This document shows, piece after piece, positions 13,870 to 53,781 of a DNA stretch of 64,000 nucleotides. The stretch is from Bifidobacteriaceae bacterium (GTDB taxonomy: Bacteria > Actinomycetota > Actinomycetes > Actinomycetales > Bifidobacteriaceae), in the NCBI GenBank assembly GCA_022651005.1, contig JALCQD010000002.1, positions 310,001 to 374,000 of the forward strand, written 5' to 3'. The notes beneath the pieces were generated by a model. That model was not told where the DNA came from and ran no database searches. It saw nothing but the letters and a program-made list of their open reading frames with translations. Numbering within the stretch: the stretch's first letter is position 1; each line of letters begins with the position of its first letter. The position numbers and the translations under genes were made by a program.

Positions 13870-14012
13870 AAAAACCTTCCTAGCCAAGTTGGATGCCTCC
13901 GCGAGACGCGAAAGTACTGACCCTTGGAATTGGAGGTTTAGAGAAACACGGATTCCTACAGTGCAGACCGAAATTATGTGCACGCAACTTAACGATTGAT
14001 TGACCGAAGGTG

Positions 14013-22009: not shown

Positions 22010-22050
22010 AAGCGGGAGTAGGTTTCAGTCAATGAGACCTACTCCCGCTT
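22010..22050 (+). terminator. Terminator hairpin after tRNA-Leu
   Basis: AAGCGGGAGTAGGT (22010-22023) and ACCTACTCCCGCTT (22037-22050) form a perfect 14-bp stem with a 13-base loop, 12 bases past the tRNA CCA. A modest T-rich tail follows. It likely ends the tRNA transcript. Confidence 0.7.
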
Positions 22051-30901: not shown

Positions 30902-30917
30902 AGCAATATGGGTGGGC

Positions 30918-30973
30918 GTAGTGAAACGACCGCTTGGCTGCTGAAGAAGTCAGCCAAGCGGTCGTTTCACTAC
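30918..30973. terminator. Long bidirectional terminator between glycerate kinase and the acyl-CoA ligase
   Basis: Bases 30918-30940 (GTAGTGAAACGACCGCTTGG and on) pair perfectly over 23 bp with 30951-30973, around a 10-base loop CTGAAGAAGT. It sits between convergent genes and should stop transcription from both sides, although U-runs are weak. Confidence 0.75.
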
Positions 30974-30993
30974 GTGCAGAAAAGGTAAGCTTG

Positions 30994-42144: not shown

Positions 42145-42274
42145 GGGTCTTTTCGCGCCATCTCATTGTTGAGCCTAAGATGCGAAGAATGTTGCACCAT
42201 CAATGGGTTTTGACATTCGATGTCAAAACGAGAGCGAATGTCAACGGGAGGCGACGACATTCCCGACTTTTGGC

Positions 42275-46169: not shown

Positions 46170-46254
46170 ACGCTGCAGTGTCGTTAACAAAAGCGTCTGT
46201 AGTGTGAAACAAAATGTGCTCGTATCAGGCCTCGACCTGACTAACGAAGAGGTG

Positions 46255-49200
46255 ATGGTGTTGACAAATCACGCGCCCTTGAATCTGACGATTCACGATA
46301 AGACGGGGCTGTATGATCCTGCAGCTGAACATGACGCGTGTGGTGTGGCCTTCGTTGCCACGCTCACGAAGGTGCCACAGCGGGCCATCGTGGATCAGGC
46401 AATCGAGGTCCTGGTCAACCTCAACCATCGCGGCGCTGTGGGAGCGGAGGAAAACACCGGAGACGGTGCAGGAATTCTCATGGCAATGCCCGACGAGTTC
46501 ATGCACGCATCAGTTGACTTCGATGTTCCGCAAGCCGGCTTTTACGCGGCAGGCATCGCCTTTCTCGACCGTGGCATTGCCGAAGGATCTTCCCAGCAGC
46601 AGGCAATAGGGAGCATCGCCGAGCAGGAGGGCCTGAAGGTTCTCGGGTGGCGCACCGTTCCCACGGATCCCAACGGACTCGGGCTGCAGGCGCTCGCCAC
46701 CATGCCGACGTTCCGTACGCTGTACGTTGCCGATGCGGCCGGCCAGCTCTCTGGCATTGGCCTCGAACGCCGCGTTTTCCGCCTGCGCAAGCGCATTGAG
46801 CACGAGGTGGGGGTGTACTTCGCCTCGTTGTCCACGCGCACCATCACCTACAAGGGCATGCTCACCACCATGCAGCTCACCCCCTTCTTCCCGGATCTTT
46901 CGGACTCGCGCATGACGACGGTTGCCGCTGTGGTTCATTCTCGTTTCTCCACCAACACGTTCCCCTCCTGGCCCCTGGCGCAACCATTCCGCCTTCTGGC
47001 GCATAACGGCGAAATCAACACCATTCAGGGCAATCGCAATTGGCTGAGCGCCCGAGAGGGTCGCCTGAAGTCAGAGCTGCTGGGAGACATGGCGCCACTG
47101 TTGCCGCTCAACACGGAGGGATACTCGGATTCAGGCACATTCGATGAGACGCTCGAGGTGTTGCATCTCGCCGGTCGTTCTCTTCCCCACGCCATCACCA
47201 TGATGGTGCCGCCGGCGTGGGAGAACGACGATCAGCTCGATCCCGACGTGCGCGCCTTCTACGAGTACAACAACACGCTTATCGAACCGTGGGATGGACC
47301 AGCGGACATCATCTTCACCGATGGGACTCAGGTGGGAGCGGTGCTCGATCGCAACGGCCTGCGCCCGGGACGGTGGCAGGTCAGCGACGAGGGACTTGTG
47401 GTGTTGGCCTCCGAGGCAGGCGTGCTCAATCGCATTCCACAGTCACACGTTGTGCGCAAAGGCCGTTTGGAACCGGGCAAGATGTTCCTTGTGAACACGG
47501 AGCAGGGCCGCATCATTCCGGATTCCGAAATCAAGCGTGACCTCGCGAGTCAACATCCCTACAGAGCGTGGGTGGAAAACAATTCGATGGAGCTCTCCGA
47601 GCTTCCAGAACGCGAGCACGTCAACTACACGGGAGTCTCGGTGCGCAGAAGGCAGCGCGCCTTCGGCTACACCCAGGAAGACCTCAAGATTCTGCTTACT
47701 CCCATGGCTAATACTGGCAAGGAGCCCATTGGCGCGATGGGTAATGACGCGCCCATTGCGGTGCTCTCGTCGCGTTCTCGAATGCTCTTTGATTACTTCA
47801 CGCAGAAGTTTGCGCAGGTCACCAATCCGCCGCTCGATTGGGAGCGCGAGCGCATGGTCACTTCATTGGAGTCTGCGATTGGGCCCGAGCCCAATCTGTT
47901 GGAAGACACCGAGCTGCACGCCAAGAAGATCGTGATTCCCGAGCCCATCATCGACTCGGAGGAGATGGCGAAGCTCAAGCGTCTCGATAAGGTGGCAGCC
48001 CTCAACGATTACTACAAGCCCTTCGTGGTGAAAGGCCTCTATCAGGTCGCTGGAGGGGGCAAGGCACTCGAGGCACGTCTCGACGAGATTTTCAACGAGG
48101 TGGACGCCGCCATTGCGGGGGGCAAGAACTTCCTTGTGCTTTCCGACCGCGATTCCAACCACACGTGGGGTCCGATACCCTCCTTGCTGCTGACATCGGC
48201 CATTCAGCATCACCTGCTGCGCACGCATACGCGCACTCAGGTGTCGATGGCCGTCGAGGCGGGCGATGTGCGTGAAATACACCACGTGGCCTTGCTCATC
48301 GCGTACGGCGCCGCCTGCGTCAATCCGTATCTTGCGCTCGAAACCGTGGAGGAACTGGCACGCAAGGGCTACGTCACCGTGACACCCGAACAGGCCGTGA
48401 AGAACCTCTCGCACGCGCTTTCCGAGGGCGTGCTGAAAATCATGTCCAAGATGGGCGTGTCCACGATCATGTCGTACCGCGGCTCTCAGCTGTTCGAGGC
48501 CGTGGGCCTTGATCAGCCCACCATTGACAAGTATTTCACCGGTACCACGTCACGCGTGGGAGGCGTGGGTCTCGAGGAAATCGCGCGCGGTGTGGCACAA
48601 CGCCACAATGTTGCTTATCCGGCACAGTGGACTGCATCGCCGCACAGAAACCTCAAGCTCGGCGGCGAGTACAAGTGGCGGCGCACCGGAGAGGACCATC
48701 TGAACGACCCCGAGGCCGTGTTCCTGCTGCAGCAGTCCACCCAGCGTGGCGACTACGCGATGTTCCAGCAGTACACAGCGCATGTTGACGACACGTCGCA
48801 CAGGCTCATGACGTTGCGTGGCCTCATGGAATTTGATTCCAAGCGTGCCCCGATTCCTCTGGAGGAAGTGGAACCGGCAACAGAGATCGTCAAGCGTTTC
48901 TCCACAGGTGCCATGAGCTATGGTTCCATTTCGCAAGAGGCGCATGAAACACTCGCCATTGCCATGAACCGCCTCGGCGCGCGGTCGAATTCAGGAGAGG
49001 GTGGTGAGTCCGACGATCGCATCGCTGATCCCAAGCGCACCAGCCGCATCAAGCAGATCGCCTCGGCCCGCTTCGGCGTCACCAGCGATTATCTCGTTTC
49101 CGCCACCGACCTCCAAATAAAGCTCGCGCAGGGCGCCAAGCCGGGAGAGGGCGGGCACCTTCCAGGTGCCAAGGTGCCGCCGTGGATCGCCAAGGTACGC

Positions 49201-50832
49201 CACGCAACGCCAGGTGTGGAACTCATCTCGCCGCCTCCTCACCACGACATTTATTCGATCGAGGATCTCGCGCAGTTGATCCACGACGCCAAGAACGCCA
49301 ATCCGCGCGCAAGGATTCACGTGAAGCTCGTGTCCGAGTTCGGTGTGGGAACCATTGCAGCGGGTGTCGCCAAGGCACACGCCGACGTGGTGCTCATTTC
49401 CGGTCACGATGGTGGAACCGGTGCAGCGCCCCTTAACGCCATCAAGCACGCGGGAACCCCGTGGGAAATTGGCCTGAGCGAGACTCAGCAGACGCTTGTT
49501 TTGAATGGCCTGCGTTCGCGTGTGGTGGTTCAGTGTGACGGTGAGCTCAAGACTGGCCGTGACATCGTCATCGCGGCGCTTTTGGGGGCCGAGGAATTCG
49601 GCTTCGCAACGTCCGCGCTCATGGTGGAAGGCTGCGTCATGATGCGCGCCTGCCATCTCAACACCTGCCCACAGGGCATCGCCACGCAGGATCCAGAGCT
49701 GCGCGCGCGCTTCACCGGCAAACCAGAATACGTCGTCAATTACTTCATGTACTTGGCGGAGGAGACTCGTGAGGTTCTCGCGAAACTCGGTTTCCACTCC
49801 ATCGAGGAAGCCGTGGGCCACGTCGAGGCTCTCAACCAGCGCAAGGCAGTGGATCAGTGGAAGGCGCAAGGCATCGACCTCAGTGCGCTGCTCGCTCAGC
49901 CAGGCCCCACGCCAGGTACCATTCTGCATCACACCATCAATCAGGAACACGGCCTCGAAAAGGCGTTGGATAATCAGCTCATCGCCGAGGCCGCACCCGC
50001 TCTGGAACGCGGCGAGCACGTGCGGCTTCACGCCGACATTCGCAACGTGAACCGCACCGTGGGCACCATGCTTGGCTACGAAATCACGCGTCGGTACAAG
50101 GCGGCGGGGCTTGCGGACAACACCATCGACATCACGCTCACCGGAACCGGTGGACAGTCCATCGGTGCTTTCATTCCGCGCGGAGAAACCCTGCGCATCG
50201 TCGGAGAAGTCAACGATTACGCGGGCAAGGGCCTGAGCGGCGGGCGCATGATTGTTCGACCGGCGGACGACGTGACCTTTGATCCGCATGCCAGCGTCAT
50301 CGGCGGCAACGTCCTGGGCTTCGGAGCCACCTCGGGGCAGATGTTCCTCGAGGGAACCGTGGGGGAGCGCTTCGCCGTCCGTAACGGCGGCGCCACTTTC
50401 GTGGTCGAGGGCGCCGGCGATCACTGCTGCGAATACATGACGGGCGGCACTGTTCTGGTGCTCGGACCCACGGGCCGCAACTTTGGCGCGGGCTTCTCTG
50501 GAGGCAACGCCTACGTGCTTGATCTGGATATGACCAAGGTCAACCGTCCGGCAGCCACGAATGGAACTCTCAAGTTCCTGCATCTTACGGAAGAGCAGGC
50601 CACCATGATTCACGACCTCATCACCCAGTATGTCGAGGAAACGGGATCTGCCTTTGCGGCGGGGCTCTTGGACGATTGGGAGGCCACGCGCTCTCGCATC
50701 ACGCACATCGTACCGTCGCAGTTCGTGGCGATGACGGCCGCGATGGAGGATGCAGCCGAGAAGAATGTGGACTTCGAGAAACCCGGTGCCTGGGAGCACG
50801 TGTATGAAACTGTGATGGAAGGAGCGCGCTGA
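46255..50832 (+). CDS. gltB: Glutamate synthase (NADPH) large subunit
   Basis: Large subunit of GOGAT, which transfers the amide of glutamine to 2-oxoglutarate. An N-terminal class II amidotransferase domain has the catalytic Cys after a propeptide in DACGVAF (Cys29 from this start), with HRGAVGAEENTGDGAG. The central FMN synthase domain includes GAMSYGSISQEAHETLAIAMN, PGEGGHLPGAKV and the Cys cluster CHLNTCPQGIATQ of the 3Fe-4S type. The C-terminal GXGXG beta-helix domain follows. About 1525 residues is normal. Starts at GTG 46204 or GTG 46258 are also possible; AAGAGG lies at 46247-46252. gltD follows after one base. Confidence 0.95.
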   Translation: MVLTNHAPLNLTIHDKTGLYDPAAEHDACGVAFVATLTKVPQRAIVDQAIEVLVNLNHRGAVGAEENTGDGAGILMAMPDEFMHASVDFDVPQAGFYAAGIAFLDRGIAEGSSQQQAIGSIAEQEGLKVLGWRTVPTDPNGLGLQALATMPTFRTLYVADAAGQLSGIGLERRVFRLRKRIEHEVGVYFASLSTRTITYKGMLTTMQLTPFFPDLSDSRMTTVAAVVHSRFSTNTFPSWPLAQPFRLLAHNGEINTIQGNRNWLSAREGRLKSELLGDMAPLLPLNTEGYSDSGTFDETLEVLHLAGRSLPHAITMMVPPAWENDDQLDPDVRAFYEYNNTLIEPWDGPADIIFTDGTQVGAVLDRNGLRPGRWQVSDEGLVVLASEAGVLNRIPQSHVVRKGRLEPGKMFLVNTEQGRIIPDSEIKRDLASQHPYRAWVENNSMELSELPEREHVNYTGVSVRRRQRAFGYTQEDLKILLTPMANTGKEPIGAMGNDAPIAVLSSRSRMLFDYFTQKFAQVTNPPLDWERERMVTSLESAIGPEPNLLEDTELHAKKIVIPEPIIDSEEMAKLKRLDKVAALNDYYKPFVVKGLYQVAGGGKALEARLDEIFNEVDAAIAGGKNFLVLSDRDSNHTWGPIPSLLLTSAIQHHLLRTHTRTQVSMAVEAGDVREIHHVALLIAYGAACVNPYLALETVEELARKGYVTVTPEQAVKNLSHALSEGVLKIMSKMGVSTIMSYRGSQLFEAVGLDQPTIDKYFTGTTSRVGGVGLEEIARGVAQRHNVAYPAQWTASPHRNLKLGGEYKWRRTGEDHLNDPEAVFLLQQSTQRGDYAMFQQYTAHVDDTSHRLMTLRGLMEFDSKRAPIPLEEVEPATEIVKRFSTGAMSYGSISQEAHETLAIAMNRLGARSNSGEGGESDDRIADPKRTSRIKQIASARFGVTSDYLVSATDLQIKLAQGAKPGEGGHLPGAKVPPWIAKVRHATPGVELISPPPHHDIYSIEDLAQLIHDAKNANPRARIHVKLVSEFGVGTIAAGVAKAHADVVLISGHDGGTGAAPLNAIKHAGTPWEIGLSETQQTLVLNGLRSRVVVQCDGELKTGRDIVIAALLGAEEFGFATSALMVEGCVMMRACHLNTCPQGIATQDPELRARFTGKPEYVVNYFMYLAEETREVLAKLGFHSIEEAVGHVEALNQRKAVDQWKAQGIDLSALLAQPGPTPGTILHHTINQEHGLEKALDNQLIAEAAPALERGEHVRLHADIRNVNRTVGTMLGYEITRRYKAAGLADNTIDITLTGTGGQSIGAFIPRGETLRIVGEVNDYAGKGLSGGRMIVRPADDVTFDPHASVIGGNVLGFGATSGQMFLEGTVGERFAVRNGGATFVVEGAGDHCCEYMTGGTVLVLGPTGRNFGAGFSGGNAYVLDLDMTKVNRPAATNGTLKFLHLTEEQATMIHDLITQYVEETGSAFAAGLLDDWEATRSRITHIVPSQFVAMTAAMEDAAEKNVDFEKPGAWEHVYETVMEGAR

Positions 50833-50833
50833 G

Positions 50834-52381
50834 ATGGCCGATCCACGAGGATTTCTGAAAACCCGCACCCGCCGCGAACTGGCGGAGCGCCCCGTCAACG
50901 AACGCGTGAACGACTGGTTCGACGTCCACGCCGAGAAGGGCGTTCAGCCCTGGACCGGTGAGCAGGCCGCTCGCTGCATGGATTGCGGAACGCCGTTCTG
51001 CATGACGGGCTGCCCCCTGGGCAACATCATCCCTGAATTCAACGACCTGGTGCGCCAGGGCCAGTGGGAGGATGCCTACAACCGTCTCTCCATGACCAAT
51101 AACTTCCCGGAGTTCACCGGACGCATCTGCCCGGCACCCTGCGAGAAGGCGTGCGTTCTCGGCATCCACCAGCCGCCCACCATGATCAAGCTCGACGAGC
51201 AGACCATCATCGATCAGGCATGGGACCTTGGCTACGTGACCCCGCAGCCTCCGCAGCGTCTCAGCGATCAGACGGTTGCCGTGGTGGGGTCGGGCCCCTC
51301 AGGCCTCGCCGCCGCTCAGCAACTCACCCGCGCCGGGCACACCGTTGTGGTGTACGAGCGCGCAGACGCCGTCGGCGGATTGGTGCGCTACGGCATTCCG
51401 AATTTCAAGCTCGACAAGCATTTGATCGACCATCGTGTTGCACAGATGGAGGCCGAGGGTACGAAATTCCGCACGGGTGTGGAAATAGGCCGCGATATTT
51501 CGTGGGACGAGTTACGCACCCGCTTCGATGCGGTGGTCGTCGCCACAGGATCCACGGTTCCGCGTGATATGCGAATTCCGGGACGTTCCCTCGATGGGAT
51601 CCACTTCGCGATGGACTTTCTACCCGACGCCACTCGTCGCGTGTACGGGGTGGATCCCGTCAACGACATCACGGCAGAGGGCAAGGATGTCATCATCATC
51701 GGCGGCGGCGATACCGGTTCCGATTGCCTTGGAACCTCGCTGCGCCAGGGTGCAAAATCCGTCACTGTGTTGCAGATCATGTCTCGCGAGCCGGACGAGC
51801 GTCCTGACTCCCAACCGTGGCCCACGTATGCGCGCACGTACCAGAAGACCTCTTCCATGGAGGAGGGCGGCACGTATATGTACGACACGGACTCCGTGGA
51901 ATTCTTATCCTCTGTGCCCGACGGGGCGTCGGATCGCGTTGCCACACCGCAGAACACCGCGGCCGATGGATTCGTGGCAGACGAGTCCGGGCACGTGACT
52001 GGGTTGAAGGTTGTGGATGTGGCGCCAGGGGAGAGTGGTCCGTTTACGCGCCAGGAGGGCACGGAGCGCGTGCTTCCCGCCGACCTGGTGCTGATTTCCG
52101 TGGGCTTCCTGCACACCGATTCCGAGACTCTCATGCAGCAGCTGCCGGTGGAGCTCGACAAGCGCGGCAACATCTCGCGCGATGCATCCTTCGAGACGTC
52201 GCAAAAAGGTGTGTTCGTGTGCGGTGACGCCGGACGCGGCCAGAGTCTGGTGGTGTGGGCTATTTCCGAGGGGCGTTCCTGCGCTGCTGCCGTCGACAAG
52301 TTCCTCATGGGTGCCACCGAGTTGCCGAGCCCCATCACCTCCACGCAGCGCCCCATGGCGTTGCCAATGACAAGAAAATAA
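50834..52381 (+). CDS. gltD: Glutamate synthase (NADPH) small subunit
   Basis: Flavoprotein subunit of glutamate synthase, 515 residues, passing electrons from NADPH to GltB. The N-terminal low-potential 4Fe-4S region has CMDCGTPFCMTGCPLGN and CPAPCEKACVLGI. Two dinucleotide folds are visible: VAVVGSGPSGLAAAQQL (FAD) and DVIIIGGGDTGSDCLG (NADPH), and VFVCGDAGRGQSLVVWAISEG near the C-terminus. It begins 2 bases after gltB, so they are co-transcribed. A hairpin follows at 52405. Confidence 0.96.
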   Translation: MADPRGFLKTRTRRELAERPVNERVNDWFDVHAEKGVQPWTGEQAARCMDCGTPFCMTGCPLGNIIPEFNDLVRQGQWEDAYNRLSMTNNFPEFTGRICPAPCEKACVLGIHQPPTMIKLDEQTIIDQAWDLGYVTPQPPQRLSDQTVAVVGSGPSGLAAAQQLTRAGHTVVVYERADAVGGLVRYGIPNFKLDKHLIDHRVAQMEAEGTKFRTGVEIGRDISWDELRTRFDAVVVATGSTVPRDMRIPGRSLDGIHFAMDFLPDATRRVYGVDPVNDITAEGKDVIIIGGGDTGSDCLGTSLRQGAKSVTVLQIMSREPDERPDSQPWPTYARTYQKTSSMEEGGTYMYDTDSVEFLSSVPDGASDRVATPQNTAADGFVADESGHVTGLKVVDVAPGESGPFTRQEGTERVLPADLVLISVGFLHTDSETLMQQLPVELDKRGNISRDASFETSQKGVFVCGDAGRGQSLVVWAISEGRSCAAAVDKFLMGATELPSPITSTQRPMALPMTRK

Positions 52382-52404: not shown

Positions 52405-52447
52405 CTCCGGTACTCTGAAAATAATTGAGTATTTCAGAGTACCGGAG
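52405..52447 (+). promoter_or_regulatory. 16-bp hairpin overlapping the ribosome-binding site of the 52457 gene
   Basis: CTCCGGTACTCTGAAA (52405-52420) and TTTCAGAGTACCGGAG (52432-52447) are perfect complements around an 11-base A/T-rich loop. The 3' arm covers GGAG of the GGAGGAG Shine-Dalgarno (52444-52450) of the next gene, so a folded RNA would mask it. It may be the gltD terminator (no U-run) or a translational switch. Confidence 0.6.
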
Positions 52448-52456
52448 GAGCATGTG

Positions 52457-53179
52457 ATGGAGCAGAGACTCGCGGGACGACTTTCGAAGCGGCTTTGGGT
52501 GGTAACCGCATCTGTACTGGGACTGGTCATGGTGATGTGGCTCTCCTCTGTTCCTGCTGCCAGTGCCGACACGAGGGCAGTATCGATCCCGGATGACGTG
52601 CGCGCATATTTTCACGAAAAGGCGCCATCGGAAATAAAGACGGATCTCGGGATCGTCGATCCTCATATCAAGGCGATTCAAAAAACATCTATGGTGATGG
52701 CAGATTCCTCGGGAAAAGTGCGCATTGAGCCATCGGACTTATGGACGGCGGCAGTGTACGACACCGAAGAGCCAGTGGGTGTGGCAACACTCGAGCGCGG
52801 CAAAGACAATGTATTGTCGCTTGGGTCGTCGAACGATGGTGAGAAGGCTCGTTATTTAGTGACCGCCGAGGAGAGCGGCGGCGAGCTCGTCGAGGCCTCG
52901 CAATTGGAGGGAGCGATTTTTATGAGGATGGACGGAACGCTTTCTCCACTGAATACGGCGGCCTATCACGTGTTTGCTGACAAGACTCAGGAGGACACGG
53001 CGCTCGCGATGCTACAGAAGAAATTTGACGACCAGAAGAAAACTGGTGGTGGGTCGGCCGAAAGCTCGCCGTCTACATGGTCCTGGCTGTGGATCGTGGG
53101 CGTACTCGCACTTGCCATCATCATGTCGTCGGGAATCTATATGGCGACGAGCGGATGCAAGACATCGCACAAAAGATGA
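52457..53179 (+). CDS. Secreted/membrane-anchored protein of unknown function
   Basis: A 240-residue protein with a signal peptide (positively charged start MEQRLAGRLSKRLWVV, hydrophobic VTASVLGLVMVMWLSS and likely cleavage after PAASA) and a C-terminal membrane helix (WSWLWIVGVLALAIIMSSG) plus a short basic tail. The ~170-residue extracytoplasmic region (ADTRAVSIPDDVRAYFHEKAPSEIKTDLGIVDPHIKAIQ) has no motif I recognise. The start at ATG 52457 fits GGAGGAG 6 bases upstream; GTG 52454 is next to it. A long hairpin covers part of that site. It is widespread or lineage-specific in unknown degree. Confidence 0.6.
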   Translation: MEQRLAGRLSKRLWVVTASVLGLVMVMWLSSVPAASADTRAVSIPDDVRAYFHEKAPSEIKTDLGIVDPHIKAIQKTSMVMADSSGKVRIEPSDLWTAAVYDTEEPVGVATLERGKDNVLSLGSSNDGEKARYLVTAEESGGELVEASQLEGAIFMRMDGTLSPLNTAAYHVFADKTQEDTALAMLQKKFDDQKKTGGGSAESSPSTWSWLWIVGVLALAIIMSSGIYMATSGCKTSHKR

Positions 53180-53283: not shown

Positions 53284-53781
53284 ATGGCAAATCGAGCACA
53301 GCGCAGGGCGAATACGCGAGCGGCACGCAAGGGCAATGACGGCCGGGACAACGGCCTACAGCAAGGTACCCAGTCGGCCACCAGTCAGGCGATGTTCAAC
53401 AACAAGGCAGATCGCGTGGCGGAGGGCAAAGACGAGTGGGTTCCTAGCCGAGTGGACATGGACGGCAACGCAATCTCGGCGGATGATGCAGACATGAACG
53501 CCTCTGATACCGCGATTCAAGATGCCACGTCTGCGAGCGCTCAGACAAACACGAGCCTCAAGCGCAAGCGCACTGGCAAGGGCTGGGCCAAGTTCTTCAG
53601 TTGGCTGCTCATCGGTCTATCGGCAGTGGCCTTCCTCATCGTTATGTGGATTCCAAATCTGCCGATGTGGGCCATTATCACGGTATCCGCAATCTTCGCC
53701 GTGGGAGTCTTGAGTCTGTTCGCCGTGCGCGGTGACAACGACAAGAACCCCTACCTGGACGAGAACGGCACAGCGGTATGA
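53284..53781 (+). CDS. Small two-helix membrane protein of unknown function
   Basis: A 165-residue protein with a basic, Arg/Ala-rich N-terminus (MANRAQRRANTRAARKG), a polar Gln/Asp/Thr-rich stretch to about residue 100, and two hydrophobic helices (FFSWLLIGLSAVAFLIVMW and MWAIITVSAIFAVGVLSLF). No enzyme motif is visible. AGGAGG at 53270-53275 precedes ATG 53284. The end overlaps the glycogen synthase start by 4 bases, so the two are probably translationally coupled, though a functional tie is not obvious. Confidence 0.7.
   Translation: MANRAQRRANTRAARKGNDGRDNGLQQGTQSATSQAMFNNKADRVAEGKDEWVPSRVDMDGNAISADDADMNASDTAIQDATSASAQTNTSLKRKRTGKGWAKFFSWLLIGLSAVAFLIVMWIPNLPMWAIITVSAIFAVGVLSLFAVRGDNDKNPYLDENGTAV

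Follow-up and report, generated by a model that had tools for sequence, protein, structure and literature searches.

A long hairpin after gltBD overlaps the start signals of the following gene in a Bifidobacteriaceae genome

What does a long perfect stem do when it follows one gene closely and runs into the ribosome-binding site of the next? The question is raised by the gltBD locus in the stretch of 64,000 nucleotides analysed here (the window), whose positions are used throughout. The original prediction proposed a thermosensor-like or protein-controlled translational switch for the downstream gene, or simple termination of gltBD. The features of the locus are as follows:

46216–50832, + strand: gltB-like gene, glutamate synthase large subunit (Pfam GATase_2, Glu_syn_central, Glu_synthase and GXGXG; coordinates from the ORF table)
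50834–52381, + strand: gltD-like gene, glutamate synthase small subunit (Pfam Fer4_20 and Pyr_redox_2)
52405–52420, + strand: hairpin 5′ arm, CTCCGGTACTCTGAAA, 16 bp of perfect pairing
52411–52416, + strand: candidate −10 element TACTCT, after GG and within the 5′ arm; predicted transcription start at about 52423
52421–52431, + strand: hairpin loop, ATAATTGAGTA, 11 nt
52432–52447, + strand: hairpin 3′ arm, TTTCAGAGTACCGGAG, pairing with 52405–52420
52444–52450, + strand: Shine-Dalgarno sequence GGAGGAG, of which GGAG (52444–52447) lies in the 3′ arm of the stem
52457–53179, + strand: gene for a 240-residue protein of unassigned family, with an ATG start 6 nt past GGAGGAG
53284–53781, + strand: small membrane-protein gene, found directly 3′ of gltD in many relatives, including the congener G001

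An alternative in-frame start of the gltB-like ORF is possible upstream, at 46204, and gltD is mostly 69–93% identical to its counterparts in Bifidobacteriaceae relatives. The 52457 gene has a second in-frame start, GTG at 52454, and its product matched no Pfam or NCBIfam family. Read by eye, the translation appears to carry an N-terminal signal peptide and a C-terminal membrane segment. Among 59 genomes, matches to this product outside its own genome were found only in G002 (53% identity) and G038 (28%), and no relatives of the protein were found in named genomes.

The perfect 16-bp stem described in the original prediction was recovered at 52405–52420/52432–52447, ending inside GGAGGAG. The GAG of this motif lies beyond the perfect stem, yet is partly paired with neighbouring bases. 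The stem begins 23 nt after the gltD stop codon, and the hairpin contains G+C. A fold of 101 nt around it had a z-score of −6.0, with none of 200 shuffled sequences folding as well, and the longest perfect stem produced by chance was 11 bp in five first-order Markov simulations of 464 kb of the window's genome. The 16-bp stem is real and far beyond chance. The eight nucleotides that follow it, GAGCATGT, contain two T residues; the U-run is missing, as had been noted. A genome-wide pattern search found no second copy of the hairpin sequence, on which ground a repeat family or mobile palindrome was rejected. No homologous copy was found in any other of 151 family genomes searched, apart from 31-nt matches in G088 and G156, which lie within an ORF in L265 and which we read as chance.

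To place this hairpin among others of its genome we used a 464-kb sample, made up of the window and 20 further stretches. It contained 29 perfect stems of at least 12 bp, 25 of them intergenic. Of these 25, 23 faced the 3′ end of a gene and 22 lay no more than 65 nt from a stop codon. Twelve were situated between convergent genes, ten between codirectional genes, one between divergent genes and two at edges; the 12 convergent cases and single divergent one are not what a 5′-leader regulator would predict. The 13 stems of at least 16 bp were all situated 65 nt or less from a stop codon, and nine of them had at most three T in the following 8 nt. For stems of at least 12 bp with a readable tail the corresponding figure was 12 of 22, the other 10 having four or more T. 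U-poor tails are not universal among the gene-end hairpins of this genome. Long perfect hairpins past stop codons are the ordinary 3′-end element in it, and because of these counts the stem at 52405–52447, 23 nt past gltD and lacking a U-run, is taken to be the genome's usual gene-end mark. Since most of the long stems (9/13) have no U-run, its absence is no argument against a terminator, and the earlier assertion that a terminator would need one fails here.

Genes were called with a home-made program, whose start sites were unreliable in the other two genomes, G108 and G116. By this program, a Shine-Dalgarno sequence was present in 11 of 87 upstream regions in G108, in 37 of 99 in G116 and, for the window's genome, in 85 of 223. 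Two other stems of the window may be recorded. A 24-bp perfect stem at 30917–30974, the longest of the 464-kb sample jointly with two others, is flanked by convergent genes whose stop codons are 15 and 19 nt away. A 14-bp perfect stem at 22010–22050 lies in a long gap between genes called as divergent by the home-made program, where a gene may have been missed.

The region downstream of gltD was compared in 36 loci, over 120 nt past the stop codon. Two species are counted twice (L039/L053 and L043/L054 gave identical values, L037/L038 near-identical ones), and L152 and L153 were left out of all counts. A perfect stem of at least 8 bp was present in 20 of the 36 loci and one of at least 12 bp in 16; in L026, one of the 20, the stem is at a distance of 82 nt and probably falls within the following gene. 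At 23 of 36 loci the fold after gltD exceeded in stability all the coding windows of that gltD. Relatives in which a strong hairpin after gltD is absent include L028, L031, L034 and L071. The congener G001 is without the 52457 gene, yet has a 12-bp stem at its gltD stop codon (scored as 11 pairs in the 36-locus count, because the stretch began at the stop codon). G002, which has the ortholog of the 52457 gene, lacks the window's hairpin. Its gap between gltD and the gene (L010, approximately 1213–1382) contains, by eye, a long imperfect inverted repeat whose arms are approximately 90 nt apart; this repeat is different from and longer than the window hairpin, and may be a mobile remnant. The post-gltD hairpins of relatives and congeners are unrelated in sequence to that of the window. 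What these loci have in common is the presence of a hairpin behind gltD rather than any masking of the 52457 gene; the position of the hairpin is old, its sequence is not.

These results bear on the last option of the original prediction, termination of gltBD, which fits best: hairpins follow stop codons genome-wide, and gltD family-wide. Of the features of a canonical intrinsic terminator, the locus has the hairpin soon after the stop codon and lacks the U-run. It has the sequence features of a U-less (I-shaped) terminator, namely a stem 23 nt from the stop codon, no U-run and a class that recurs in the genome. I-shaped intrinsic terminators of mycobacteria are described, in a passage of PMC12288462, as hairpins within approximately 50 nt of the stop codon with no poly-U; the same passage presents U-less termination in mycobacteria as disputed, setting references 134 and 135 against 137. 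As a putative terminator, the window hairpin resembles these in lying near a stop codon with no poly-U tail, and unlike them comes from another family of Actinobacteria.

The effect of the stem on the ribosome-binding site was assessed by RNA folding. In read-through RNA, with starts between 52300 and 52405, opening the 7-nt Shine-Dalgarno sequence was predicted to cost 10.2–13.7 kcal/mol (15 folds). For RNA starting between 52411 and 52431 the cost was 2.9–6.2 kcal/mol (24 folds), so that the Shine-Dalgarno sequence freed of the 5′ arm is still partly paired by comparison with the genome median of 2.6 kcal/mol. In a uniform test, the 52457 gene had an opening cost of 10.8 and ranked second among 204 genes with a Shine-Dalgarno sequence (median 2.6). 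The gene ranked first is in L150, and its start is probably misplaced. Masking of the 52457 Shine-Dalgarno sequence, as originally proposed, is thus supported for gltBD-derived RNA, in which the predicted folds have the stem hiding the site. In L150, a 12-bp gene-end stem at 13927–13966 has AGGAGG in its 3′ arm right before the next gene. The called start there is TTG at 13971, and the real start may be a GTG approximately 9 nt further on.

A promoter-like sequence, GGTACTCT, occupies 52409–52416. Its TA is 46 nt before the ATG, and it resembles family promoters; a clear −35 element is absent. The 10-mer CGGTACTCTG (52408–52417) is common to the window and the congener G001, where it precedes the next gene; for the G002 ortholog, GTAAACT is found, its TA lying 44 nt upstream of the ATG (distance counted by hand). 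We then looked at gaps behind gltD more widely, using 60 hand-picked regions, mostly short gltD-to-next-gene gaps, from 139 genomes with a match. Of loci L184–L242, 12 of 59 were unparsed and dropped, and L243 was left out, giving 47 gap sequences, 46 distinct ones from relatives and the window's own. GTANNNT occurred 28–62 nt before the start of the post-gltD gene in 25 of the 47, against a mean of 5.2 and a maximum of 12 in 200 shuffles (approximately 5 of 47 gaps by chance). A scan with the sigma-70 consensus called no site at the 52411–52416 candidate, a de novo search for promoter motifs by EM drifted to noise, and in a MAFFT alignment the G000 and G002 candidates for the −10 element did not line up; TA...T was weakly enriched upstream of genes in the window's genome. 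We consider a promoter of its own for the 52457 gene plausible. A start 6–8 nt past the −10 element would fall in the loop, and the RNA would therefore be without the 5′ arm. The original prediction had named transcripts starting downstream of 52432 as those that would leave this arm out; the predicted start, at about 52423, is not downstream of that position, but also omits the 5′ arm.

At this locus a gene-end hairpin does overlap the signals that start the following gene, and such an overlap is unusual. Our preferred reading, which we hold to be somewhat better than evenly probable, is that the hairpin is a terminator or insulator of gltBD overlapping the promoter and ribosome site of the next gene, and acts as a passive insulator, not a sensor. 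The hairpin would be the 3′-end element of the gltBD transcript, of the terminator type without a U-run that is usual in this genome; RNA polymerase passing gltD would form it and stop there with some efficiency. Any read-through RNA would hold both arms, and the predicted fold would lock the 52457 Shine-Dalgarno sequence and presumably its translation. The gene's own promoter, with its −10 element in the 5′ arm, would give RNA starting in the loop with a freer Shine-Dalgarno sequence. The outcome would be passive insulation of two transcription units. The gltBD-terminator half of this reading is likely. That one hairpin ends gltBD transcripts, carries the next −10 element and also locks the ribosome site on escaping RNA is a more tentative proposition, which we regard as doubtful on balance. 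If the preferred reading is right, adjacent transcription units are separated compactly, without an extra intergenic gap. If the hairpin does all three jobs, the membrane or secreted protein would stay silent while only gltBD is transcribed.

A precedent for such a lock is found in phage T4. Passages in PMC3014915 and PMC2988022 describe leaders of gene e (lysozyme) and I-TevI in which a stable stem hides the Shine-Dalgarno sequence on the long RNA, while a close upstream promoter gives RNA that is without the 5′ strand and is translated. The 52457 gene resembles gene e in having its Shine-Dalgarno sequence in the 3′ arm and a high opening cost on the long RNA (10.2–13.7 kcal/mol). According to the same passages (PMC3014915, PMC2988022), late starts and an effect on translation are demonstrated for gene e and I-TevI, whereas for the 52457 gene we infer both. 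Unlike that of gene e, the window hairpin is on a bacterial chromosome and is placed where the upstream operon should end. A hairpin doing all three jobs would be a lock of the T4 gene e type fused with a terminator, in a bacterial chromosome. Searches of one literature library on overlapping promoters and terminators, or on sequestered sites and read-through, returned nothing relevant, which is no proof of absence from print.

The most serious alternative, although we think it improbable, is that the hairpin is a gltBD terminator only, its overlap with the Shine-Dalgarno sequence reflecting tight packing with no selected effect on the 52457 gene. GTANNNT lies inside a hairpin, in stem or loop, as a −10-like site in four relatives, L207–L210, which are alike around the site (CCTGCGGTA) and probably of one origin. 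Such overlaps in the gltD-downstream gaps of relatives came to 4 of 16, where packing predicts 2.7 (P = 0.22), and are thus no more than packing would give. Genome-wide, the hairpins with GTANNNT in the loop or 5′ arm were 3 of 73 for codirectional hairpins, 0 of 90 for convergent hairpin orientations and 1 of 18 for divergent ones, counts too few to show design; on both comparisons, a promoter within a hairpin is unsupported as a family design. The G002 ortholog is without such masking, its Shine-Dalgarno sequence being more accessible at 3.9–4.5 kcal/mol. Against termination alone stands the strength of the predicted masking, which few of the 204 genes approach, so that an effect on read-through RNA would be hard to avoid.

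A regulated translational switch, in which the stem is an RNA thermometer or is opened by a protein or ligand, has in its favour a long stem over most of GGAGG. Some RNA thermometers do pair the Shine-Dalgarno sequence in a stem. However, the window stem, unlike those of thermometers, is perfectly paired, and its stability is much too high for it to open at growth temperatures. The cost of opening 52444–52448 was 13.6 kcal/mol at 20 °C and 6.6 kcal/mol at 70 °C, and the mean unpaired probability of the site rose from 0.12 to 0.22 over the same series. As the opening cost drops merely to 6.6 kcal/mol at 70 °C, the stem is no thermometer; the site is predicted to be paired throughout the series from 20 to 70 °C, and both the thermometer and the thermosensor-like switch first suggested were rejected. 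Nor was the suggested protein-controlled switch supported: the structure is missing from the G002 gene, the one close ortholog that was found, and no counterpart was seen elsewhere in the 151 family genomes. Rfam returned no family at threshold, its sole match being a microRNA with 19.7 bits against a gathering score of 80, so that no known riboswitch or Rfam leader was matched. We consider a sensor or a protein switch unlikely and give this alternative very little weight. A stem in a leader may be the terminator of the previous gene, which should be asked before it is named a switch.

We give slightly less credence still to a DNA operator, in which a repressor binds the palindrome on the 52457 promoter. 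The perfect inverted repeat does lie on a promoter-like element, but it has a single copy in the genome, and places matching the hairpin pattern elsewhere with two or three mismatches numbered 12, against 22 for a reversed-pattern control. Similar long palindromes also occur between convergent genes, and arms of 16 bp with an 11-nt spacer would be unusually long for an operator. An operator-like arrangement is seen elsewhere in the window, at 42207–42244, where two overlapping 10-bp inverted repeats sharing TTGACATTCG-like units directly precede GGGAGG. Least probable of all is a stabiliser or processing site of the mRNA 3′ end with Rho terminating further on, a role that suits a long perfect RNA duplex with no U-run just past a stop codon and that the present data do not separate from a terminator, but in which Rho would act inside the next gene, only 9 nt further.

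The G002 locus has two further peculiarities. Downstream of the ortholog of the 52457 gene, at contig C1 60539–60634 (L010, approximately 2663–2761), the final 32 codons of gltD occur a second time, with 81% identity. The ortholog thus has a gltD tail on either side, as though the 3′ end of gltD had received an inserted segment. The region that separates the second tail from the following gene contains a perfect stem of 20 bp, with a loop of 16 nt (L022 4711–4766; L010, approximately 2832–2895).
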